Below are positions 1,905-57,505 of a stretch of DNA of 64,000 nucleotides, one piece after another. The DNA is from Phyto melanocephala. Its lineage: Eukaryota > Arthropoda > Insecta > Diptera > Rhinophoridae. The notes below the pieces were generated by a model. The model saw only the letters and a program-made list of their open reading frames with translations, ran no database searches and had not been told where the DNA came from. The stretch spans positions 63,821,043 through 63,885,042 of the forward strand of contig OW799234.1 of assembly GCA_941918925.1 (NCBI GenBank), read 5' to 3'. The position numbers and the translations under genes are program-made. How positions within the stretch are numbered: the stretch's first letter is position 1; every line of letters starts with the position of its first letter.

Positions 1905-4900
1905 TGTCACGGAAAATCAAAGTGCCACCCCCACTTTTTCGACCACCTCCCATATAGCGTTTTACCTAAAATTCATATAATTTCTCTATTAATAATGATT
2001 TTGGAATAATAAACGATCATATTGAAACATCTAAGTTGTACTCATTAGCAAAATCAACTTTGACACGCCTAATATAACGCCCACTTCTCACGTTATCTTC
2101 CGTTAATGAAATTTAAAAGCTTATAAAACCGCCAAAACTAGAGGTATGATGATGAAATTTGCTACGTATGTTCCACTAGGCAATGTCATTACTGTGCCAA
2201 TTAAGGTGCCACGCCCACTTTTACGCCCACCTTTCATATAACGTTTTACCTAAAATTCATATAATTTCTCCATTAATAAAGATTTTGAAATAATAAAGGG
2301 CTATATTGAAACACTTAAGTTGTACTCATTCGCAAACATAACTTTGACACGCCTACTATAACGCCCACTTTTCACGTTATCTACCGTTAATGAAATTTAA
2401 AAGCTCATAAAACCGCCAAAACTAGAGGTATGATGATGAAATTTGCTACGTATATCTCCCTAGGCAATGTCATTACTGTGCCAGAAAATTAAGATGTCAC
2501 GCCCACTTTTACGACCACCTCCCATATAACAATTAACCTACAATTCATATAATTTCTCTATTAATAAAGATTTTGGAATACTAAAGGACTATATTGAAAC
2601 ACCTAAGTTGTACTCATTCGCAAAAATAACTTTGACACGGCTACTATAATGCCCACTTTTCACGTTATCTACCGTTAATGAAATTTAAAAGCTCATAAAA
2701 CCGCCAAAACTAGAGGTATGATGATGAAATTTGCTACGTATATCTCCCTAGGCAATGTAATTACTGTGCCAGAAAATTAAGATGTCACGCCCACTTTTAC
2801 GACCACCTCCCATATAACGATTTACCTACAATTCATAAAATTTCTCTATTAATAAAGATTTTGGAATAATAAACGATCATATTGAAACATCTAATTTGTA
2901 CTCATTAGCAAAATCAACTTTGACACGCCTAATATAACGCCCACTTCTCACGTTATCTACCGTTAATGAAATTTAAAAGCTCATAAAACCGCCAAAACTA
3001 GAGGTATGATGATGAAATTTGCTAAGTATGTTCCGCTAGGCAATATCATTACTGTGCCAAAAAATTAAGGTGCCACGCCCACTTTTACGCCCACCTTTCA
3101 TATAACGTTTTACCTAAAATTCATATTATTTCTCCATTAATAAAGATTTTGAAATAATAAAGGGCTATATTGAAACACTTAAATTGTACTCATTCGCAAA
3201 CATAACTTTGACACGCCTACTATAACGCCCACTTTCCACGTTATCTACCGTTAATGAAATTTAAAAGCTCATAACACCGCCAAAACTAGAGGTATGATGA
3301 TGAAATTTGCTACGTATATCTCCCTAGGCAATGTCATTACTGTGCCAGAAAATTAAGATGCCACGCCCACTTTTACGCCCACCTCCCATATAACGATTTA
3401 CCTACAATTCATATAATTTCTCTATTAATAATGATTTTGGAATAATAAACGATCATATTGAAACATCTAAGTTGTACTCATTAGCAAAATCAACTTTGAC
3501 ACGCCTAATATAACGCCCACTTCTCACGTTATCTACCGTTAATGAAATTTAAAAGCTCATAAAACCGCCAAAACTAGAGGTATGATGATGAAATTTGCTA
3601 AGTATGTTCCGCTAGGCAATATCATTACTGTGCAAAAAAATTAAGGTGCCACGCCCACTTTTACGCCCACCTTTCATATAACGTTTTACCTAAAATTCAT
3701 ATTATTTCTCCATTAATAAAGATTTTGAAATAATAAAGGGCTATATTGAAACACTTAAATTGTACTCATTCGCAAACATAACTTTGACACGCCTACTATA
3801 ACGCCCACTTTCCACGTTATCTACCGTTAATGAAATTTAAAAGCTCATAAAACCGCCAAAACTAGAGGTATGATGATGAAATTTGCTACGTATGTTCCAC
3901 TAGGCAATGTCATTACTGTGCCAAAAAATTAAGGTGCCACGCCTACTTTTACGCCCAACTTTCATATAACGTTTTACCTAAAATTCATATAATTTCTCCA
4001 TTAATAAAGATTTTGAAATAATAAAGGGCTATATTGAAACACTTAAGTTGTACTCATTCTCAAACATAACTTTGACACGCCTACTATAACGCCCACTTTT
4101 CACGTTATCTACCGTTAATGAAATTTAAAAGCTCATAAAACCGCCAAAACTAGAGGTATGATGATGAAATTTGCTACGTATATCTCCCTAGACAATGTCA
4201 TTACTGTGCCAGAAAATTAAGATGTCACGCCCACTTTTACGACCACCTCCCATATAACGATTTACCTATAATTCATATAATTTCTCTATTAATAAAGATT
4301 TTGGAATAATAAACGATCATATTGAAACATCTAAGTTGTACTCATTAGCAAAATCAACTTTGACACGCCTAATATAACGCCCACTTCTCACGTTTTCTAC
4401 CGTTAATGAAATTTAAAAGCTCATAAAACCGCCAAAACTAGAGGTATGATGATGAAATTTGCTACGTATGTTCCACTAGGCAATGTCATTACTGTGCCAA
4501 AAAATTAAGGTGCCACGCTAACTTTTACGCCCACCTTTCATATAACGTTTTACCTAAAATTCATATGATTTCTCCATTAATAAAGATTTTGAAATAATAA
4601 AGGGCTATATTGAAACACTTAAGTTGTACTCATTCGCAAACATAACTTTGACACGCCTACTATAACGCCCACTTTTCACGTTATCTACCGTTAATGAAAT
4701 TTAAAAGCTCATAAAACCGCCAAAACTAGAGGTATGATGATGAAATTTGCTACGTATATCTTCCTAGGCAATGTCATTACTGTGCCAGAAAATTAAGATG
4801 CCACGCCCACTTTTACGCCCACCTCCCATATAACGATTTACCTACAATTCATATAATTTCTCTATTAATAAAGATTTTGGAATAATAAAGGACTATATTA

Positions 4901-6190
4901 AAACACCTAAGTTGTACTCATTCGCAAAAATAACTTTGACACGCCTACTATAATGCCCACTTTTCACGTTATCTACCGTTAATGAAATTTAAAAGCTCAT
5001 AAAACCGCCAAAACTAGAGGTATGATGATGAAATTTGCTACGTATGTTCCACTAGGCAATGTCATTACTGTGCCAAAAAATTAAGGTGCCACGCCCACTT
5101 TTACGCCCACCTTTCATATAACGTTTTACTTAAAATTCATATAATTTCTCCATTAATAAAGATTTTGAAATAATAAAGGACTATATTGAAACACTTAAGT
5201 TGTACTCATTCGCAAACATAACATTGACACGCCTACTATAACGCCCACTTTTTACGTTATCTACCGTTAATGAAATTCAAAAGCTCATAAAACCGCCAAA
5301 ACTAGAGGTATGATAATGAAATTTGCTACGTATATCTCCCTAGGCAATGTCATTACTGTGCCAGAAAATTGAGATGCCACGCCCACTTTTACGCCCACCT
5401 CCCATATAACGATTTACCTACAATTCATATAATTTCTCTATTAATAAAGATTTTGGAATAATAAACGATCATATTGAAACATCTAATTTGTACTCATTAG
5501 CAAAATCAACTTTGACACGCCTAATATAACGCCCACTTCTCACGTTATCTACCGTTAATGAAATTTAAAAGCTCATAAAACCGCCAAAACTAGAGGTATG
5601 ATGATGAAATTTGCTACGTATATCTTCCTAGGCAATGTCATTACTGTGCCAGAAAATTAAGATGCCACGCCCACTTTTACGCCCACCTCCCATATAACGA
5701 TTTACCTACAATTCATATAATTTCTCTATTAATAAAGATTTTGGAATAATAAAGGACTATATTAAAACACCTAAGTTGTACTCATTCGCAAAAATAACTT
5801 TGACACGCCTACTATAACGCCCACTTTTCACGTTATCTACCGTTAATGAAATTTAAAAGCTCATAAAACCGCCAAAACTAGATGTATGATGATGAAATTT
5901 GCTACGTATGTTCCAATGTCATTACTGTGCCAAAAAATTAAGGTGCCACGCCCACTTCTACGCCCACCTTTCATATAACGTTTTACCTAAAATTCATATA
6001 ATTTCTCCATTAATAAAGATTTTGAAATAATAAAGGGCTATATTGAAACACTTAAGTTGTACTCATTCGCAAACATAACTTTGACACGCCTATTATAACG
6101 CCCACTTTTCACGTTATCTACCGTTAATGAAATTCAAAAGCTCATAAAACCGCCAAAACTAGAGGTATGATGATGAAATTTGCTACATAT
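1905..6190 (+). repeat. Satellite-like tandem array, about 15 monomers of 288 bp
   Basis: The landmark CCGTTAATG recurs at 2100, 2384, 2672, 2960, 3248, 3536, 3824, 4112, 4400, 4688, 4976, 5264, 5552, 5840 and 6121. Spacing is 284 once, then 288 twelve times, then 281 (a 7-bp loss near 5915). Monomers fall into at least three subtypes, told apart by CGATCATATTG / GGGCTATATTG / GGACTATATTG and by TTAGCAAAATC / TCGCAAACATA / TCGCAAAAATA. The other family-B copies hold only one or two related monomers. There is no coding potential. Confidence 0.95.
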
Positions 6191-6373
6191 AACAGTTTAT
6201 CTTAAATTCATTGAATTTCTCTATTGACAAAGTTTTTGGGAAAATAAAGGACTATATTGAAATATCTAAGTTGTGTTTATTAGCAGAAACTTTATTGACA
6301 CGCCTTCTTTACCGCCCACTTTCATTGAAAGACTACATTTACAAAAGCATTTTATTAGCATATCGAAGTTATA

Positions 6374-7394: not shown

Positions 7395-9157
7395 AATATT
7401 TCACTGAAATCCGAAAATGCTGTAAACGTATTCTCGGAAACGTTATTAACTGGAGCTAAAGTAGTTACACCTTTTAAATGCTATAACGGCACTAAAAATA
7501 AATTTTCAACGACCATTCAAAACCTTATAAAGGAAAAGAGAAATCTAAGAAGACAATGGAAACTACACCGCTCGCCAACCTTGAAAAGACAACTAAGCCA
7601 CAGTCAAAGAACCATTTATAGTGCTCTTTGGCAGAACAAACAATCAGCTATAAAAGCATATTTAGAAGGTTAACACGCAACGAAATTCACTGATTATAGT
7701 CTTTGGAAGGCCACCAATGACTTAAAACCCAATTAGATGCGAATCTGTAATTCGGTTTAGCGATGGTAACTGGGCTAGGTCCCATAAAGACAAAGCTGAA
7801 GTTTTTGCTGATCATCTCGAAAAATTATTTACGCCTAATATTTCTAGCTCATGCACAACTTTACCAGAGATTCGTTTCTCGTCCCTAATTTCAGCAAATA
7901 ATTCCCCTGGCATGTACAAAATTTCTGGAAAAATGATACTGGAACTACCAACATCTGCCCTTAAGCTGGTGCTATTCATATTCAATTCCATCTTAAGAAC
8001 CGGTTTCTACCCTAAATCATGGAAAACATCAGATATAACTATGATACCTAAGCCAGGTAAGGACGCTAGCCAAGTGTCATCTTATTGCCCTATAAGCATA
8101 CTTTTAATTTTTTCAAAGCTCTTTGAGAAAATATTTTTAAATGCATTGACCCCATATCTAAACGACCACCACATCATTCCCGTTCATCAATTTGGATTCC
8201 GAAAAGATAATGGCACCATAGAACAGGTTCGTCGCAGGTTTATCAGACAGGATTTTGAGGACAAGCACTATTGCTCATGACTCTTTATAGACATTTGTCA
8301 GGCTTTTGACAAGGTTTGGCATGATGGGCTTCTAAATAAAAAAGGGTCTTTATTTCCCTAAAATACCCACAAATTACTGCGAAATTATTTATTGGATCGT
8401 TCATTTGTAGTAAAGTATAAAGACCATATCTCAGAAAAATTGCAGCAGGAGTATAATTTATACATCAGATATGCCCACTAATAACTTGATACACACGTCA
8501 ACTTTTGCAGACGATACATAAAAATCCAGCTATTGCTTCTAATTGCCTGCAGGATCATATTAAAGATCTGGAAAAATGGCTCAACCAATGGAAAATAAAA
8601 GTAAACCCAGCAAAGTGCGCACATGTCACTTTCAGCTTGAGCAAGGGAAACTTTCCTAATCTGAAGATTAATAACATCGCTATCCCAGTTCAAAATCATA
8701 TAAAATATTTTGGTGTACACCTTGATCGACGCCTTACCTGGTCTCAACATATCGAATCCAAATCCATACAACTCAAAACACTACAACTTCAGTGGCTTCT
8801 TTGTTTTCATTCTGCTCTCAACCTAAACTACAAGGATTTATTCTTCAAAGCTATCATTATGCCAATATGAACCTATGGTATCCAACTATAGGGAACTGCT
8901 TCTGCTTCTAATATAGAGAAACTACAAAGACGAAAAAATAAAATATTGCGACTTATAACTGGGGACCCTTAGTTTATTAGTAACGCAAATATTCATAAGG
9001 ACCCTAATATTCCATTTGTTCGCGACGAAATAAAAACCTTCTGCTCAAAATATGTACGAAAGCTGGAATTTCATCCAAATCCTCTCGCACAGAATCTACT
9101 GTATTATAATGGACATATTCGACTCAAGAGGATCGATACATTGGGCACAAACAAGTA
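7395..9157 (+). pseudogene. Jockey-type non-LTR retrotransposon, dead reverse transcriptase
   Basis: Translated fragments in several frames follow the Jockey ORF2 order. The pre-RT stretch LIKEKRNLRRQWKLHR is near 7530. Then come the RT fingers (IPKPGKDASQVSSY near 8050, HQFGFRK near 8188), motif A IDICQAFDKVWH near 8290, FADD near 8508, the thumb VHLDRRLTW near 8714 and the conserved tail KLEFHPNPLAQ near 9062. Motif B (PQG) is missing: an AGV-like remnant near 8450 joins almost directly to the segment before FADD, so a short deletion removed it. Stops and frameshifts separate most blocks. In the family the protein copies RNA by target-primed reverse transcription. No endonuclease region or intact 3' tail was seen, so this copy is 5'-truncated and inactive. 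Confidence 0.88.
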
Positions 9158-9164
9158 GTTGTAT

Positions 9165-9740
9165 TTTGTTTTATATATCTCAGTTAGTTTTCAACCGATT
9201 TTTCAGTTTTTCTTCGATATAAGAATTTTAGAGACTACACTTTGCACTTGGGTGTTTATAGCATGTCACAAAATTAATTTTGAGCTTAAGGAACTAGATG
9301 TATTTCAAAAAAAAATTGTTATGCCTATAACTTTGCGATTCGTGACCGCTACGTCCAAACATTTTCACGAATAGCTGTAGAGGCATATCATATCTACAAC
9401 TAGTGATAAACGTGTGTAGAAATTATCCTCAGGCTGAAATATTTTAATTGTTATGGTAAAAATATAGGATAGACTAGAGAGAGAGAGAGTAGTGCTTATT
9501 TGCTCATATCTAAGAAAAATATGGGTTAATTGTGTTGAGTTTCAATGGCGATTGATTTCCCGATATTTGAAAAAGATTGATACTACATGCAGATTTGTGC
9601 AATATGTGGTGTTGATTTTAACAACGTCTGAACGGACAGACGAAAATAGCTTAATTGGCTCCTTTAGTCATAAGCTTTCCGAAAGTTATGGGATCGAAAA
9701 GGAATATTGTAGAAATGACAAATGGAAACAAAAACAAACC
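9165..9740 (-). mobile_element. Fragment of a DINE-like element related to family A
   Basis: The segment with TTTGCTCATATCT, ACGGACAGACG and TTATGGGATCGAAAAGGAATATTGTAGAAAT matches the 5' half (reverse complement) of family-A copies at 33488-34303 and 45852-47056. Neither terminal hairpin is clearly preserved. It abuts the LINE remnant upstream. Confidence 0.6.
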
Positions 9741-18257: not shown

Positions 18258-19938
18258 TTAACACGTTGACTGCCATGTGCGCCACCGGTGGCTCACACAT
18301 TTCCTTTTACATGATACCGCGTGTACCACTGGTGGTGCACATTGGTTCTTGTATTGTTTATGAAATATTTTATGGCCTGTTATTGATATTTATTTTTCTT
18401 CTTCAGTGGCTCTTCAATAAAAATATAAAGTTTTACTATGCAAAAAAATGTTGGGGTATTACAAGTTTTTCTTTCTTTTTTTTTTAAATATTTCATACAT
18501 TTTTGAAGTTCATAACTTTGGAATATTTTATTTATTATTTTAATATAACATAAAAAAAACTTAAAAATTCATAAATTCATAGAGATCAATAAAACAAATA
18601 ACAATATTAACTTATATATATATTATCTATAATATTAATCTAATGGTTTTTGCTAAAACATTCCAAGCATAAAGCTGGCTTGCCATCACAATAGTTACAA
18701 AATGTAGACACCCTTTTAGCTTTTTTTATTGCAGCATTTCTTCCCTCATTTTTTTTTATTTTTTTGATATCGCTATAACAGCTGACACAACATTTTCTAG
18801 ATTTCCTGTTATTTTTATCTCTTATTTCGTATTCCTTCATGGTGTGTTTGTTGCTGCTAGATGTGGTTGAAAGACTAACTTCACAAAGAGCTTCACAGAG
18901 TGATTGTCGGAACTCTAAAATTTGAATATTGGCGCAAAACTCCTTGTAAATTACTAATGCATTCACTACTTAAAAGAAATTCAAAGGCAACTTTGTGGTA
19001 CCACCTGAATCTGAAATATCTATCCCCTGTTTAGCCACATTATACTCCATGATCATCTTCAACTTCTTTGTTTCCATATTATTGCAGTTTCGTTTTCCAG
19101 TGCCAATAACATCTAAATTGTGTTTTGTGCTAAGCATTAGAACATCGCGCTTGTCTTTCCACTTTGCAACTACTATACCCGAGTTTGCACAACCAATTAC
19201 ATCATTCTTTTTTAGTTTTGCTTTTATTACATCTGTTGGATTCCTACATCTGTTACTGCGAAGAGTTCCAACAAGATATGTCCTACGATCTATTAGTAAT
19301 TTAGCTAGTGCTACAGATGTATAATAATTATCCGTGGCAATTGTTCTTCCTTTGTCTAAATATTTATCATCAAGGTCTAAAACAATCTGAGTGCTATGAG
19401 AGGTGTTTGTTGATGGTCTACCTCTCTGATGTTGTTCATCACATTTTCCGCCATATTTGGAGCAAGTATAAGTATATCCACTGGGATCACAAAGCTTGTA
19501 AACTTTTACTCCATATTTGTGTGACTTTCCAGGGTTATACTGACGAAACTGTAGCCTTCCTCGTCAAGGAATCATGCTTTCGTCAACAGCTAAAATTTCG
19601 CCCGGAACTAGAGCATTGACGAAGTTTTTCTCAAGAATTTAAAGCAAATGGCTTACCTTACCAAGGCGATTGCTACCAATTTCAGAGTTGTCGGCAAAAT
19701 GGATAAATTTTAAAAGTAGCTGAAGTCGATTTCGGGACATAATTTGCGGAACAAAATTGTTTCTATAAAATGGATTATTGCTCCAGTACAGCGAAATAAA
19801 TGGATACTTTACCAAGCCCATATACATTAGAATTCCAAAAAACTTTTTTATCTCCGCGATATTTGTATCACTCCATCTCTTAATGCGGGATCCACGAGTA
19901 ATAATGGATTTGGCTACGAACTGTTGGGCCGATATCAA
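18258..19938 (-). mobile_element. piggyBac-like transposon, transposase 5' end lost
   Basis: The lower-coordinate end carries TTAA (18258-18261) followed by CACGTTGACTGCCATGTGCG, the typical start of insect piggyBac-like elements inserted at TTAA, and then a short GCCACCGGTGGC palindrome. The transposase is read on the minus strand toward this end. The other terminus is missing because Tc1-like sequence begins at about 19925. Confidence 0.85.
18640..19938 (-). pseudogene. piggyBac transposase remnant with C-terminal cysteine domain
   Basis: On the minus strand the frame runs through RGSRIKRWSDTNIAEIKKFF, YMGLVKYP and MSRNRLQLLLKFIHFADN (19938-19640). It passes an in-frame stop and continues with EILAVDESM, GKSHKYGVKVYKL, ATDNYYTS, TYLVGTLRSN, DKRDVLMLSTKHN and EYNVAKQGIDISDSG. 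The aspartates of AVDES, TDNYY and GIDISD fit the DDD catalytic triad of piggyBac. Two premature stops interrupt this frame (TAA near 19640, TGA near 19570). After GIDISDSG a short deletion and stop removes the usual KWY-type segment. The last 108 residues (18966-18640) end in a zinc-binding cluster of C-x2-C pairs (CCVSC, CNYC, CLEC), as in the family. The enzyme excises and inserts DNA precisely at TTAA. This copy is dead. Confidence 0.9.
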
Positions 19939-30812: not shown

Positions 30813-33380
30813 AACAAGTAAGAACACTATATTCGGCTGTGCCGAATCTTTAATACCCACCACCAATTTTGTGTACATTTAAAGCACAATATTTATTATT
30901 TTTTTAATCGCTATAGAATAATCTCTTTATAATAAAATATGCGTTATAATAAAGTGGGCGTTCAAATCAAAATGCGTTTTGTGCACTTCGTGATTCTTTT
31001 GGTCAACATAATCGTTCGAATTCGTCCACAATCGTGAGAATTGTAAAAAATATTTAAATGTCTGCAAAGCAGGTCTGTATGAAATGTGAAAACATCTGTG
31101 AATGCCATCTTAGTTCGTTGAATGGGAAACATTGCTGTTTTTCACGATAACGTGGCAAAAGAGCAAGCAACCTTGACTCATCATCGTGCCCAATAATCGA
31201 GCATCAACAGTGTCATTGAAAATTCGGACTATCGGATCGTGGTGTGCCACCTAGGTTGGGGGGCCATTTGGCCGATATTTTGTTTCATACATAATTGAAG
31301 CATACAAATATTATCATTATAAAAATAAATGATAATAATTTCAAAATAATTTTATTCAAAATCAACATAGTCCCTTAAAATAAAACCACCCATTATAACT
31401 TCGGTATGCTAGTAAAATGTTTTCGTAAATTTAGTCTTTCAATGAAAGTGGCCGTTAAAATACGCGTGTCAATAAAGTTTCTGCTAATAAACATAACTTA
31501 GATATTTCAATATAGTCCTTTAGTATTCCAAAATCTTTATTCATAGAGAATTTACATGAATTTAAGAGGAATAAAGTGAATTTAAGGTTAAATTTTAAGG
31601 GCCACAGGGTGACTTAAAATATACATTCTCTGCATTTTTCTAAAACGGGAAATTTCTTAGTAAGATTTTGTTTTTTAAACTTCTATAACATTTTGCTTTT
31701 AAAAGATTTTCAAACGAAATAAGTTTTGTATAATTTTAAAATTTGTTAGCCATTAGTACATGAAAATGAATTGTTTATAATGTTTAGAGATAATTTTTTT
31801 TGACTTAGGTCAAAATTTTCCTAAATTCCCATTTTTAATAGAGCATAATTTCAGGAGAACATAAGCATAAGTTGTTAGCATGCCATCTAGTAGTTGCTAG
31901 TAGAGTCATCTATCTTATCATCTTTATCTTATATTTAGCTACAGTACAATAAATGGCGCAGTGTATAATGAATAAATGCTAATATATATGACTAATATAT
32001 TTTTATAAAAATTTAAAGAAAAAAGTGTGCGTGGCACATCTATTTTCCGTTATAACGAAGACTTTGACCAAAAAGCCATGTTTGCAAAATTTCAGAATCG
32101 TACATATAGTTTTGTCAGTTGTATTACGTTTTAAATTTGAAATATACACTGTGCGGTATAAATTTTCGTACATTTTTATCTATAACTCTTTTCCTAATTC
32201 ATAGATTTAAGCGATTTTCAGGGAAAAATATTCCTTTGACTCGATTAATATATATTCGAAGTTTCATGACTACGTTTATGCGTCTGGACACAATTCAAAA
32301 GTGAAAGTGGGCGTTATAGTAGGCGTGTCAAAGTTGTTTTCGCTAATGAGTACAACTTAGGTGTTTCAATATAGTCCTTTATTATTCCAAAATCTTTATT
32401 AATAGAGAAATTATATGAATTTTAGGTAAAACGTTATATGGGAGGTGGGCGTAAAAGTGGGCGCGGCACCTTAATTTTTTGGCATAGTAATGAAATTGCC
32501 TAGGGGGATAGAAGTAGCAAAATTTATCATCATACCTCTAATTTTAGCGGTTTTATGAGCTTTTAAATTTCATTAACGGTAGATAACGTGAAAAGTGGGC
32601 GTTATAGTAGGCGTGTCAAAGTTATTTTTGCGAATGAGTACAACTGAGGTGTTTCAAGATAGGCCTATATTATTCCAAAATCTTTATTAATAGAGAAATT
32701 ATATGAATTTTAGTTAAAACGTTATATGGGAGGTGGGCGTAAAAGTGGGCGTGGCACATTGATTTGCCGTTACAAGAAAGCGTGTCACCAAAAAGCAAAG
32801 TGTGCAAAATTTCAGAGTCGTACATCCAATTTTGTTGCTTTTATGACGTTTTTGTTTTTAAATATACCGAAAAATACACTGTGCGGTATAAATTTTCGTA
32901 CATTTTGATCGATAACTCCTCTCCTAATGCATAGATTTAAACAATTTTCGGACAAAAATATTGTCTTTACCCAGGAAATATGTATTCGAAGTTTCATGAG
33001 TCTACGTTAAGGCGTTTGGACACAATTCCATTTTATTCGATGTTCGGAGGACACGGTTTTTTCGACCTACTCTTGCTTTTCGAGCTATAACTCTCTTCCT
33101 AATATTCCGATTTAGCCCATTTTCAATACCAAACAAACCTTGTCTATAAGAAAGATTCTGGCAAAATTTGAGCACCCTAGCTTTTTCGGTGCGACCTCTA
33201 TCGTGCTTTCAACAGACGGACAGACGGACAGACGGACGGACATAGCTAGATCGTCATAAAATCAAACCCTGATTCAGAATATATATACTTTATGGGGTCT
33301 AAAGTGGATATTTCGATGTGTTACAAACGGAATGACAAAATGAATATACCCCCACCATTTTTTTGGTGGCGGGTATAAAA
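30813..33380 (-). mobile_element. DINE-1/HINE-like element, family B copy 3, inverted relative to copy 2
   Basis: The 3' hairpin ATTCGGCTGTGCCGAAT lies at 30831-30847 and the 5' hairpin ends at about 33377, so the element points left. It shares with copy 2 (13250-15907) the monomer pair, the GGCATGCTAACAACTTATGC block (complement near 31880) and the nested mariner MITE. The MITE is shortened at its left side. The two copies form an imperfect inverted repeat of about 2.6 kb with roughly 15 kb between them. Confidence 0.87.
30957..31392 (+). mobile_element. Mariner-derived MITE in family B copy 3, one end deleted
   Basis: The right end has CCCTTAAAATAAAACCACCC and then TATAAC, the expected insertion point. 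The other end is lost: near 30955 DINE-like sequence (ATAAAGTGGGCG) joins directly to the MITE interior (TTCAAATCAAAATGCG). Confidence 0.78.
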
Positions 33381-52676: not shown

Positions 52677-52857
52677 GTGTTTAATTTATTGTCTATAGAT
52701 TATAAATCCTTACAGACTAAAGTATATAAAATAACGAAACAAAATTAAGGTTATATATAAAATAATATTCTATACAATTCAACGATTTAAATATAAAATG
52801 ATATTTCTTCTGACAATTTCTTTATTTTCATTAAGGCCAATAAGGTGATAATAATTA
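52677..52857 (-). pseudogene. Last codons and 3' UTR of the minus-strand LINE
   Basis: From 52857 down, the minus strand reads NYYHLIGLNENKEIVRRNII and LYLNR, then TGA (52781-52779). This continues the LINE frame that stops at 56119, once the transposon 52858-56118 and one TTA are removed. About 100 bp of 3' UTR follow, then the ATAA tail. Confidence 0.8.
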
Positions 52858-53372
52858 CACTGTGCATGAAATTTACACTTTTTTTACGTGACAAGCTGGG
52901 CACCTGGCGTTTGAACATAATTCGGGTACGCTGAATCCAGTGGTGCCCGCAGTTTTTTAAGATTAGCTCTGGTTTTCGAGATATACCGTTATTTCGAAAA
53001 TGGAGGAGGTTGCACAACATATGTTCGCGTAACTCAAAAACGCTTTAGCATATTGAAAAAAATTAAAAAACCGAAATTCCGCAATAAAATTTCCTTTAGC
53101 AAAAATAAAACTTCTTTCTAATATCCCAAGTCGTTTTAGAAACATAATTTTTTTTTTTTAAATTAATTTTTTTATCGAAATTTCGAAATTTTTGTTTTTT
53201 AAAAAATCATAAAAAATTAAAAAATGCAGGTAGACTTTTAATTGCAGACATATAAAAAATGAATCTGGTAACAAAACAAGCCATAAATGTTTAAAATCTG
53301 TTGGCAACTTTTGATTTTATTCACAAAAGTCGACAAATTTTAATTAATTTAAGAATGTCATAAAACGCAATA
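52858..53372 (+). repeat. Left terminal inverted repeat, about 515 bp
   Basis: It pairs with 55608-56118. Shared landmarks are GGGCACCTGGCG (52898-52909), CATAATTCGGGTACGCTGAAT, AATGGAGGAGGTTGCA, TCGTTTTAGAAACATAAT and ATGTCATAAAACGCAA. The outermost 30 bp pair poorly: 32 bases lie between CACTGTGC start and GACAAGC here, against 22 on the right. Confidence 0.92.
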
Positions 53373-53744
53373 TTTGTATGGGAGGCCCCCTAAGAGGTGG
53401 AGTTACCGATTAAAAAATTCTTAGAATTAAGAAATAAAGTCATAAATGCTTTCATCTTTGTATTTTATTGTGCAGTCAAAACCGCACTAATCGGTCTTGT
53501 AAAAAACTTAAATAACATATTCTATTATTATACCTGGAACAGGTAGAAATATTATTCGTTCTGGTTTTTTTTACAAAACATGGTCATGAACGTCTCGACA
53601 GGTACTTTGATTAAAACAATTACAGTATAAATAAGAGTTCCTAAACCCCTTCACTTTCATATGGAAAGTGCTTGCGAAAGTGATTAGTGAAGTTAAAAGC
53701 CTTTAACAGTCTCCTATCCAATAAGTTATATTGAAATATATAAG

Positions 53745-54071
53745 ATGGAGGCGTGTAAAAAGTTTAATTACTTTTGTTATGTGTGTGGGAAATATAAAAA
53801 TATGCCAAGTCGCCGTAAAATCACTACTGAAACAAGTACCTTGTATTTATCATATTTTTCTTTAAGGGTTATATATGGTAAGAGTTGGACACCATCAATA
53901 GTGTGTACACACTGCATTTACCATTTAAATAAGTGGGGAAAAACTGGAGACACCATGCCATTTGGTGTTCCAATGATTTGGAGAGATCCCATAGTTGATG
54001 TTGAAGTTGAGTGTTATGCATGCATAAATTATACAGTCACAATGAAATCACGCAAGATCGTCTGGATATAA
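53745..54071 (+). CDS. Transposon protein, N-terminal cysteine-rich part
   Basis: The frame starts at an ATG about 370 bp inside the left arm and gives 108 residues. It begins MEACKKFNYFCYVCGKY and has three C-x2-C pairs: CYVC (about residues 11-14), CTHC (about 52-55) and CYAC (about 91-94). A SWTPSIVC segment and the phrase MPFGVPMIWRDP come before the last pair. Such paired cysteines suggest a zinc-binding, probably DNA-binding, head. The frame closes at TAA after KIVWI. Similar protein (QSILLTKELKRANILAPGVQ) resumes in another frame from about 54101, so a lesion or an unrecognised intron lies at 54060-54100. I recall this head-plus-body arrangement from unnamed arthropod proteins, without a functional name. 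The role is inferred from position between long TIRs. Confidence 0.75.
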   Translation: MEACKKFNYFCYVCGKYKNMPSRRKITTETSTLYLSYFSLRVIYGKSWTPSIVCTHCIYHLNKWGKTGDTMPFGVPMIWRDPIVDVEVECYACINYTVTMKSRKIVWI

Positions 54072-54100
54072 TGGTACGGCGTCTAAAATTATCTTAAATA

Positions 54101-54252
54101 CAGAGCATTCTCTTGACTAAAGAGTTAAAACGAGCTAATATTTTAGCACCAGGTGTACAAACATACGGGGCTATCAATCGCCATAGACGATTTACGACTT
54201 TTTTAAATCTATTGAGAATAATTCTATTGCGTATTGTACTGACATCCGCGGA
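54101..54252 (+). pseudogene. Frame-shifted linker of the transposon protein
   Basis: One frame gives KELKRANILAPGVQ and NRHRRFTTF up to the T6 run at 54199-54204. After a one-base slip there, the next frame gives DFFKSIENNSIAYCTDIRG, which runs without a stop into the main segment. This shows that the head and body were once a single protein. Confidence 0.7.
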
Positions 54253-54787
54253 TTGGTTTTAACAATGCAAAATGAATATAATCCTGGAGATTGGCGCTTA
54301 TTCATTGATTCTTCCAAAAGTAGCTTAAAAGCAGTTTTGCTACATGTCACTAATTTAAAAAGTCCTATTCCGATAGCACTTAGCACAAATACTAAAGAGA
54401 CATACGCATCAATGAAAAAAATAATACAGTTAATAAAATATGAAGACCACAAGTGGAAAATATGCGCAGATTTAAAAGTGGTAGCTCTTTTAAGAGGCAT
54501 GCAATTGGGCTATACTAAAAATATGTGCTTCATGTGCTTATGGAATACGCGTTTCGATGGCGACCAGTACAATACACGGGATTGGGCTTTACGTGAGGAA
54601 AGCAGATTGCATAGAAACAATGTTATTGAGTTACCACTTGTGTCGATGGAAAAGATTTTGCTTCCTCCACTCCACATCAAACTGAATATTGTAAAAAATT
54701 TTATAAAAGCATTGAGCCCAGATGGTGTTGCTTTTACCGAATTGCACCGAATTTTTCCACGATTAAGCGGCATGAAAGTAAAAGAAG
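54253..54787 (+). CDS. Transposon protein, putative catalytic part, exon upstream of intron
   Basis: Continuous with the upstream frame (a TTG at 54253 is not a real start). Residues counted from there show NEYNPGDWRLFIDSSKSSLK (about 7-26), KICADLKVVALLRGMQLGY (about 70-88), CFMCLW (about 92-97), LLPPLHIKLNIVKNF (about 136-150) and FPRLSGMKVKEG (about 169-180). IDSS and CADLK have the look of the first two aspartates of an RNase H-like DDE fold, with a C-x2-C insertion after the second. That reading is inference. The exon ends at 54787 in AAAGAAG|GTATGA, a good insect 5' splice site. Read-through past it gives only 14 unrelated residues and a stop. Confidence 0.78.
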
Positions 54788-54853
54788 GTATGAACTCTAA
54801 CTACTTTATTCAATTAGATTTATATTTCATTTCATAATGTTTCTATTTTACAG
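54788..54853 (+). other. 66-bp spliceosomal intron
   Basis: Begins GTATGA and ends TTCTATTTTACAG. Removing it joins K-V-K-E-G to I-L-N-G in frame. A size in the 60s is typical of fly introns. A polypyrimidine tract is visible before AG. Confidence 0.88.
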
Positions 54854-55236
54854 GAATTCTTAATGGACCGGACATTCGCCGTCTTATGAAGGACCATCAA
54901 TTTGAGGTTGCATTGAATGATATCGAGCTATTGGCCTGGAATTGTGTGAAATCAGTAATAGAAAATGTATTAGGAAATCATCGGTCTGAAAACTGGCGAA
55001 TTTTAATCAAAAATATGCTAACCGCATTTAAAAACTTAAACGTTAGAATGTCATTGAAAATACATTTTTTGCATTGCCATGCCGAAAAATTTAATGAACA
55101 ATCACCAGCCGAGTCTGATGAACATGGCGAGAGATTACACCAAGTAACAGCCAGGCTCGAACACTGGTATAGCGGCAAACAACTTGATTTGCTATTAGGG
55201 GATATTTGTTGGAATCTGCAGGAGGAAGAAGAATAA
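54854..55236 (+). CDS. Transposon protein, C-terminal exon
   Basis: It continues ILNGPDIRRLMKDHQFEVAL through ELLAWNCVKSVIENVLGNHR, then MSLKIHFLHCHAEKF, SDEHGERLHQVTARLEHWY and LLLGDICWNLQEEEE to TAA at 55234-55236. The glutamate in DEHGERLHQ is the best candidate for the third acid of a DDE triad (inference). The MSLKIHFLH and GERxHQ blocks are the most family-like parts of the protein. A poly(A) signal AATAAA follows at 55244-55249. The exon is intact for its whole length. Confidence 0.82.
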
Positions 55237-55243
55237 ATTTCTA

Positions 55244-55249
55244 AATAAA
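55244..55249 (+). promoter_or_regulatory. Poly(A) signal AATAAA
   Basis: Eight bases after the stop codon of the transposon gene. A second AATAAA overlaps the stop itself at 55232-55237. Confidence 0.6.
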
Positions 55250-55607
55250 AACTTTAACTTTAATTACTTAGCAACACAAATTTTTTAGTTTGGTTATTAT
55301 AAAAAATTTCATCTTTTCTGAAAAAATCAAAAGTTGTAGACAGACTTTAATCACTAATAGCTTTTTTTGTTTGGAACTTTGTTTTTTATACGCGTAGAAC
55401 CCTAGCCTTAAATTTTGCACCTGCAGTGCCTGAGATACCCCTAGACGGGCCAAATTTATGACCAGCGCAACTTTATTTTTCATTTCCATCATTTGTTTAT
55501 AAGGCTTAGGATTCACTCCTAGGGGGATAAAATGTATGACCGACCTCCAATGTTTTTTGTTCTTAACATTTTCTCAAATTATACTTTCCATTTATCACCA
55601 CCCCTTA

Positions 55608-56118
55608 GGGTGGTTGCGTTTTATGACATTCTTAAATTAATTAAAATTTGTCGACTTTTGTGATTAAAATCAAAAGTTGCTAACAGATTTTAAAGATTTA
55701 TGGCTTGTTTTGTTATCAGCTTTATTTTTTATATGTCTGCAAAATATTAGAAGCCTACCTGCATTATGCATTTAATTTTTTATGAATTTTTAAAAAACAA
55801 AAATTTCGAAATTTCGATAAAAAAATTAATTTTTTTTTTTCAAAAAACAAAAATTATGTTTCTAAAACGACTGGGGATATTAGAAAGAAATTTTATTTTT
55901 CCTAAAGGAAATTTTATTGCAAAATTTTTTCAATAAGCTAAAGCGTTTTTAAGTTACGCTAACATATGTTATGCAACCTCCTCCATTTTCAAAATAACGG
56001 TATATCTCGAAAGCCAGAGCCAATCTTAAAAAACCGCGGGCACCACTGAATTCAGCGTACCCGAATTATGTTAAAACGCCAGGTGCCCGGCTTGTCTGTT
56101 TTTTCAACTAGCATAGTG
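55608..56118 (-). repeat. Right terminal inverted repeat, about 511 bp
   Basis: Reverse-complement partner of 52858-53372. It ends GCATAGTG at 56118, followed by TTA. Inner homology stops near GTTGCGTTTTATGACATTC (55611). Confidence 0.92.
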
Positions 56119-57505
56119 TTATTAAAGTTTTCACATATACGACAAAGAGGATCATTATTAGCATAGTTGGATTTATAGTATTTTAAGTTAATAAAACGGA
56201 AATTTCGAGTTGGTTAAAAGATATTTTACTTAGCAGGAATTCAGAGTCGATATCGCCTTGAATTAGGCCCAGCACAAAAGAAAAACTCAGCATTGAACGA
56301 CGACTTTTTAAAGTTGGTAATTTTATAAGACAAAGTCTGCTTTCGTATGAATGTAGTAAAAACGAATTCCATCCAAGGCCACGAAGACAAAATATTAAAA
56401 ACTTCTTTTGTACAGACTCGATACTATCAATATGAATATTATAGTAAGGATCCCAAATAATCGATCCGTATTCTAGAATAGGTCGAACTAACCATGAATA
56501 TAATTGTTTCGTAATATAAGGATCTAGAAATTCCTTGCACCACCTTTTCATAAATCCAAGTACACAATTTGCTTTGTTAACAATTAAAGAAATATGGTCA
56601 CGAAAATTTAATTGCTGATCAAGCAAAATACCAAGACCAAGAAAGTTAAGAACTTTATCAAGTTTACACTCATTAATGCAATAAAATAAATCCAATTTCC
56701 AAATTCTGAAAAAGGACATATGCTTACATTTTTTTATATTCAGTTCCATTAAGTTGATTTTACACCAATTAACCAATTTGTCAATATCAGATTGAAGGAA
56801 AACTTGATCTTCGGGATTATTAGAAGAACGCAAATTTTTGATATCATCGGCATACATAAAAACTTTAGAGTGCTAAATAACTGAGGAAAGATCGTTTATA
56901 AATAAGGTAAATAAAAGAGGACCAGGGTGGCTACCTTGCGGAACATCAGAAGGAACTTTGATACCATTAGACGTAGCGCTTCCATACTTAACTTGTTGAG
57001 TTCTAAAAGACAAGTATGATCTTAACCATTTTATTGTCATATCCGAAAATCCCATTAATGACAATTTGTAAAGCAAGAGATCATGGTTTACCTTATCAAA
57101 AGCTTTACTCAAATCTGTATAGATAGCATCAGTTTGCAGATTATTTATAAAACCGTCATTTATTGTAGCTCCAAAATATTAGTCGTTGTAGAGCGATGTT
57201 TACAAAAACCATGTTGGCACGGTGATAAAATCCAAGAAATTTGATCATATAAATTATCAGTTAAAATTTTTTCAAAAACTTTGGGAATATCACTCAGCTT
57301 AGCAATGCCACGATAATTTGATCTCTCAATTTCGCTTCCATTTTTAAACAACGGAATTATATACGATAATTTCCAAATCAATGGTACGTACCCTAATTTA
57401 ATGGATTTGTTAAATATAGCAGTAAGCGGGTAACATACATTTTCTGCACAATTTTTTAGAACACAATTTGGTATTTCATCTGGACCTGCATTAAACGAAT
57501 TATTT
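56119..57505 (-). pseudogene. Non-LTR retrotransposon reverse transcriptase, minus strand, 5'-truncated
   Basis: The minus strand from about 57505 reads AGPDEIPNCVLKNC, then SNYRGIAKLSDIPKVFEKIL and QHGFCKHRSTTTN (RT fingers). After a frameshift near 57170 come TDLSKAFDKVNHDLL (motif A) and VPQGSHPGPLLFTLFIND (motif B). One stop later is FMYADD (catalytic YADD, near 56850). The thumb and tail run to LGILLDQQLNFRDH and GSIIWDPYYN. A frame slip near 56200 leads to NNDPLCRICENFN at the transposon edge, and the end of the protein is at 52857-52779. It differs clearly from the two Jockey copies in this window. The clade (CR1/RTE/R1 side) is not settled. It has only about three lesions besides the insertion, so it is rather young. 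Confidence 0.88.

Follow-up and report, generated by a model that had tools for sequence, protein, structure and literature searches.

A probable Chapaev3 transposon copy with two unequal end types in the fly Phyto melanocephala

What kind of element occupies positions 52858 to 56118 of the 64,000-nucleotide stretch of Phyto melanocephala DNA analysed here (the window; contig OW799234.1, positions 63,821,043 to 63,885,042 of the forward strand)? An earlier note, made from the sequence alone, described an uncatalogued-looking DNA transposon with long terminal inverted repeats (TIRs) and an intron-bearing transposase gene of its own. Here the element is interpreted, with high probability, as an internally deleted, non-autonomous member of a Chapaev3 cut-and-paste transposon family (CMC/CMCT clade) that is young and has a high copy number. 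The interpretation draws on the recurrence of the element in the host genome, its target site duplications (TSDs) and termini, and the conserved motifs of its transposase.

A many-copy family in the host genome

The host genome (G000, 740 Mb) was searched with the left arm of the element (best 40 of 1818 candidate matches scored), with its coding DNA (best 40 of 906 candidates) and with the protein of a relative, P0002 (best 75 of 7496 candidates); the copy number from each search is a lower bound. Besides the window copy, the loci read comprised 10 full-length copies (L029-L038) and 20 stretches chosen among the best matches to the arm (L009-L028), and both ends were readable in 24 of the 31 loci. 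Because an element with the same ends recurs across the genome, a chance origin of the structure is excluded. The 3-bp flanks are matching direct repeats in 22 of the 24 copies (20 TTA or TAA, one TTT in L031 and one TAT in L033), as expected of the long-TIR transposon proposed in the earlier note. When the flanks were re-paired at random 20,000 times, the mean was 9.7 matches and the maximum 18. Outside the duplication, 46 of 48 ends carry an A. The copies read have CAC...GTG termini, the exceptions being one GAC end in L027 and a variant after CAC in L010.

In the ten full-length copies, length ranges from 3616 to 3775 bp and pairwise identity from 98.3 to 99.7%, and their arms align over 396-422 columns. 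At least five of them have an open frame of 542 codons after intron removal. The high similarity and the open frames suggest a recent spread, that is, a many-copy mobile family that has recently been active. A further copy, L016, lies 131 kb from the window copy, matches its coding stretch end to end at 99% and lacks the same 202 bp (see below). L016 has flanks unlike those of the window copy and its own matching duplication, which makes it probable that the deleted form moved.

In the window, the inverted arms, the CACTRTGC ends and the TTA duplication described in the earlier note are present at 52855-56121:

52855..52857, no strand, left TSD, TTA, read from the sequence
52858..56118, + strand, whole element, 3261 bp, internally deleted copy
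52858..53370, + strand, left arm, end type A, tip CACTGTGC; shared inner block 33 nt from the tip
55614..56118, - strand, right arm, end type B, tip CACTATGC; shared inner block 23 nt from the tip
56119..56121, no strand, right TSD, TTA, read from the sequence

The arms pair between 52890-53370 (481 nt) and 55614-56096 (483 nt), with 88% identity over 498 alignment columns. The outermost 22-32 nt are unlike between the two ends, the terminal CACTRTGC excepted. No second copy of the arms was found within the window by blastn.

Several copies are rearranged. The internal part is flipped relative to the A and B tips in L030 and L032 compared with L029, L031 and L033-L038, and likewise in the window copy compared with L016; its occurrence in either orientation suggests recombination flips between the long arms. 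Six loci (L022 and L024-L028) have a second inverted subterminal piece that results in longer, foldback-like arms. One of these, L028 (G000:C5:25604000-25613500), has two A-type ends and lies inside a palindrome (3512-5323 against 7599-9425) with 1.8-kb arms of 98% identity, which take in approximately 1.1 kb of the flanking sequence at either end of the copy. Possible origins of this palindrome are template switching, an inverted duplication derived from a hairpin, or an artefact of the assembly.

The transposase gene and its predicted core

The window element holds a single gene, on the + strand. An intron, as had been proposed, is indicated by its borders together with the open frames that adjoin it in full-length copies; no other intron is supported. 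The gene of the window copy is, however, broken: it has lost 202 bp and 1 bp and carries an in-frame TAA. The frame jump near 54033 was considered as an intron and rejected, being the 202-bp deletion relative to the full-length copy L029. Because its gene is broken, the window copy could be moved in trans at most. The parts of the gene are:

53745..54033, + strand, N-terminal part with three CxxC pairs, predicted ZAD-like zinc domain (fold from the same domain in relatives)
54033..54034, + strand, breakpoint of the 202-bp deletion relative to L029
54095..54097, + strand, in-frame stop codon TAA
54187..54788, + strand, catalytic core as far as the intron, open frame, holding IDSS, CADLK and CFMCLW
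54198..54199, + strand, 1-bp deletion relative to L029
54307..54309, + strand, first catalytic D (IDSS), D in 85/85 relatives
54469..54471, + strand, second catalytic D (CADLK), D in 84/85 relatives
54526..54537, + strand, C(2)C motif, both C in 85/85 relatives
54789..54854, + strand, intron, 66 bp, gtatg...tttacag
54855..55236, + strand, last exon including the stop codon, holding DEHGERLHQ
55063..55080, + strand, H(4)H motif, H in 84/85 relatives at both places
55129..55131, + strand, catalytic E (GERLHQ), E in 84/85 relatives, one gap

All of the protein blocks named in the earlier note (three CxxC pairs, IDSS, CADLK, CFMCLW and DEHGERLHQ) were thus located, at 53745-54033, 54187-54788 and 54855-55236, and the acids it proposed as a catalytic triad are the conserved ones. 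Across the 85 relatives the transposase is of the DDE type and has the motifs C(2)C, LH and H(4)H, and the codons for these residues are also in the window. The core of the predicted transposase model aligns with RAG1 and Transib, which were the top folds after VIA re-alignment of Foldseek candidates; the prediction is a DDE core of RAG1/Transib type that contains a zinc-binding insertion. Motifs and predicted core agree with a transposase of CMC-like class. The homologues are neither single-copy nor devoid of TIRs and the predicted fold is not unrelated to RNase H, any of which, according to the earlier note, would have counted against its proposal. A viral structure library gave no match at E<=0.001, none of the 36 stretches of viral contigs that fitted a pattern encodes a relative, and a search of NCBIfam with 5 proteins gave one weak, unrelated match (E 0.09).

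Classification among the relatives of RAG1

Transib, TransibSU, Chapaev and Chapaev3 have been united with RAG1 in one superfamily, and an N-terminal Chapa zinc domain has been described that RAG1 also has (Kapitonov and Koonin 2015, PMC4411706). The CMCT clade unites these groups with others (Kojima 2025, PMC12730594). Chapaev3 itself goes back to earlier literature, for which PMC4079192 cites Repbase Reports and PMC4411706 cites Repbase Reports of 2007 and 2008. The Chapaev3 elements examined by Zhang et al. (2014, PMC4079192) all have TWA duplications inserted between A and T. Their transposases have C(2)C, LH and H(4)H motifs, and their hosts are insects, lampreys and others, including Helobdella.

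The present family conforms to these rules. The duplications are TTA or TAA in 20 of 24 copies and lie between A and T, the termini are CAC...GTG, and C(2)C, LH and H(4)H are all present. Merrow, Garfield and Conan, which are Chapaev3 families, share these features and also have deletion derivatives, and a Chapaev3 transposase is approximately 550 aa long (556 in Garfield) compared with approximately 542 aa here. The element is therefore not uncatalogued in kind, its hallmarks being those published for Chapaev3 (PMC4079192), and the tie between this protein family and mobile DNA, which the earlier note took to be new or little described, was already made with the description of Chapaev3 transposons (PMC4079192, PMC4411706). 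What looks new relative to the published families is the combination of arms of approximately 0.4-0.5 kb and an intron position of its own. The two end types, with an inner block 23 or 32-33 nt from the tip, and an N-terminal domain predicted to fold like ZAD hint at further novelty.

Several observations weigh against the Chapaev3 assignment. It is based on hallmarks and not on a tree that includes Repbase Chapaev3 sequences. The full-length Merrow and Garfield elements are approximately 2.29-2.45 kb long and have an intron after approximately codon 78, most other Chapaev3 being single-exon (PMC4079192), whereas the present elements reach 3.6-3.8 kb and have their intron after approximately codon 415, with none near codon 78. 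Foldseek alone found nothing significant for the whole model (best E 8.7e-3, to glucokinases). Two of the 24 end pairs (L028 and L032) have no matching TSD, and the second end was unreadable in seven of the 31 loci (L010, L014, L015, L018, L021, L022 and L023). A comparison of the joined flanks of the 24 copies with the loci read gave no clean empty site: 75 of 437 matches span the junction, all from L009, L034 and L035, at 65.7-80% identity and many in A/T-rich DNA. The copy at L015/L065 was also considered as an empty site and rejected: it is flanked by TTA and TAA and the copy next to it is truncated, which proves nothing.

These departures from Merrow and Garfield in length, arms and intron position would suit a separate lineage of the CMCT clade, with the TWA duplication and the motifs in common with Chapaev3 yet not nested within it. 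We consider such a lineage improbable, given that the TWA duplication between A and T, the CAC ends and the C(2)C, LH and H(4)H motifs are all present and that a close relative found by search is a protein of Helobdella robusta, Helobdella being among the Chapaev3 hosts listed by Zhang et al. (2014, PMC4079192). A new superfamily was rejected too, the testable Chapaev3 hallmarks being present, the N-terminal domain apart.

Membership in the Transib/RAG group is suggested by the best folds, RAG1 and Transib, and by the further likeness in C(2)C and H(4)H within the insertion, CAC-type heptamer, weak N-terminal sequence similarity to RAG1 and unequal end spacing. The duplications decide against it, as they are 3 bp and AT-rich instead of 5 bp and GC-biased as in ProtoRAG, Transib and RAG (PMC8289069, PMC4411706). 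CACTA/EnSpm elements have CACT(R) ends and 2-4-bp duplications, with which the ends and duplications found here are compatible. The motifs C(2)C and H(3-4)H are likewise common to both (PMC12730594). The A-TWA-T target sets the present family apart, and the Pfam matches, whether for pieces of the window or for the 85 relatives (25 of 40 families listed), include no CACTA family. Either alternative is very improbable. That the gene is a host gene or a domesticated transposase merely lying between inverted repeats is scarcely credible: relatives annotated only as uncharacterized, hypothetical or unnamed would allow it, but the family is multi-copy with identical ends and matching TSDs, and for the window locus the copy is broken and a host gene has already been refuted.

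Unequal ends, the N-terminal domain and neighbouring sequences

In type B, 21 of 22 ends have the start of the shared inner block ACAAGCYGGGCACC 23 nt from the tip, L011 being degenerate; in type A, all 26 ends have it at 32-33 nt. The difference of 9-10 bp is approximately one helical turn, and the spacers after the octamer are 15 and 24-25 nt. Both types are combined in 22 of 24 end pairs; two pairs are A+A (L013 and L028) and none is B+B. L009-L028 were chosen with an A-tip query, which favours A in that set, and all ten copies chosen by protein are A+B. The pattern could be due to common descent alone. L013, an A+A copy with a matching duplication, argues against a strict pairing rule. Unequal spacers are also known from the P element. 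By analogy, the two types are reminiscent of unequal RAG signals and may hint at a function; in ProtoRAG the ends are asymmetric, their 27/31-bp spacers being important for activity, and recombination signal sequences have 12/23 (PMC8289069).

Beyond the directly observed ends, duplications, copy number, similarity between copies, conserved residues and predicted fold, the best supported mechanism, by analogy, would be cut-and-paste by a RAG1-type DDE enzyme with 3-bp staggered joining to the target. Full-length copies encode a transposase of approximately 542 aa, in which the predicted RAG1/Transib-like core with its zinc-binding insertion comes after an N-terminal zinc domain. This enzyme would nick at the CACTRTG ends, and the element would be excised and joined to an A-TWA-T target cut with a 3-bp stagger, with strand chemistry, hairpins and synapsis modelled on RAG1 and Transib. 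Both end types may be used in one synapse, and deleted copies may be mobilised in trans.

The first approximately 70 residues of the relatives have a predicted ZAD-like fold, in which both CxxC pairs of the ZAD (zf-AD) of insect zinc-finger proteins align. In ZAD proteins C2H2 fingers come next, whereas in the transposase a third CxxC and the DDE core follow. The similarity in sequence is weak and lies under the Pfam cut-off in rows with shown scores: zf-AD matches 7 of 22 N-terminus rows at E<=1 (best E 4.3e-6), the N-terminus of P0005 reaches 25.5 bits against a cut-off of 28, and the first exon of the window copy has no zf-AD match at E<=1. RAG1_imp_bd matches weakly in 8 of the 22 rows (best E 0.02), and the N-terminus profile matches the RAG1 N-terminal region 21wb_A weakly (E 0.0079). 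The RAG1 N-terminal structure is absent from the structural matches of the N-terminal model (51 chains re-aligned). The Pfam scan also gave single-row matches to other small zinc or unknown domains (DUF7685, E 7.8e-4; zf_RING-like, E 0.0035).

By hhalign, the 22 transposase N-termini against 25 ZADs of the host genome (26 loci fetched from 72 listed matches, minus L043, which has stops) score 24.76, with an E of 3.6e-4 for one pair and a probability of 37%. None of 100 column shuffles reaches this score (maximum 18.48), nor does any of 100 shuffles with the cysteine columns fixed (mean 13.8, sd 2.9); the maximum of the latter is 24.55, and the ZAD signal beyond the cysteines is therefore thin. 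The fold and these comparisons hint at a ZAD-like predicted domain whose sequence also resembles the RAG1 N-terminus.

A bolder proposal is that the Chapaev3 N-terminal domain is homologous to ZAD, the RAG1 N-terminus and the insect ZAD factors deriving from one transposon domain, and that the unequal ends are used as a pair, an analogue of the 12/23 rule outside the RAG/Transib branch. We regard this as tentative and, on balance, doubtful. Among the papers listed, a search of the open-access literature found none joining ZAD with Chapaev, the Chapa domain or the RAG1 N-terminus. If true, the link would bear on the origin of a large family of insect regulators and of part of RAG1. As an element, the transposon is an ordinary inhabitant of animal genomes; as a young, near-identical family with a predicted RAG1-type transposase and two unequal ends, it is a good testbed for end choice by RAG-like enzymes.

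The host genome has at least 72 zf-AD domains (best 150 of 225 candidates scored), several of them clustered on C2 and C5, which is in keeping with an insect. A ZAD fragment of M1BP gave two short matches in the protein collection.

Other elements and repeats lie in the window. Reverse-transcriptase gene fragments are found at 56183-56872 (- strand; RVT_1, E 0.001), approximately 65 bp from the transposon, and at 7726-8280 (+ strand; RVT_1, E 2.1e-4), both under the cut-off. A transposase fragment at 18970-19563 (- strand) matches DDE_Tnp_1_7 (E 5.1e-34), which we take to be a piggyBac-like family. A tandem repeat of approximately 15 units of 288 bp occupies 1912-6191, and a short array at 32304-32846 has the same 288-bp period, with a unit that by eye looks related.
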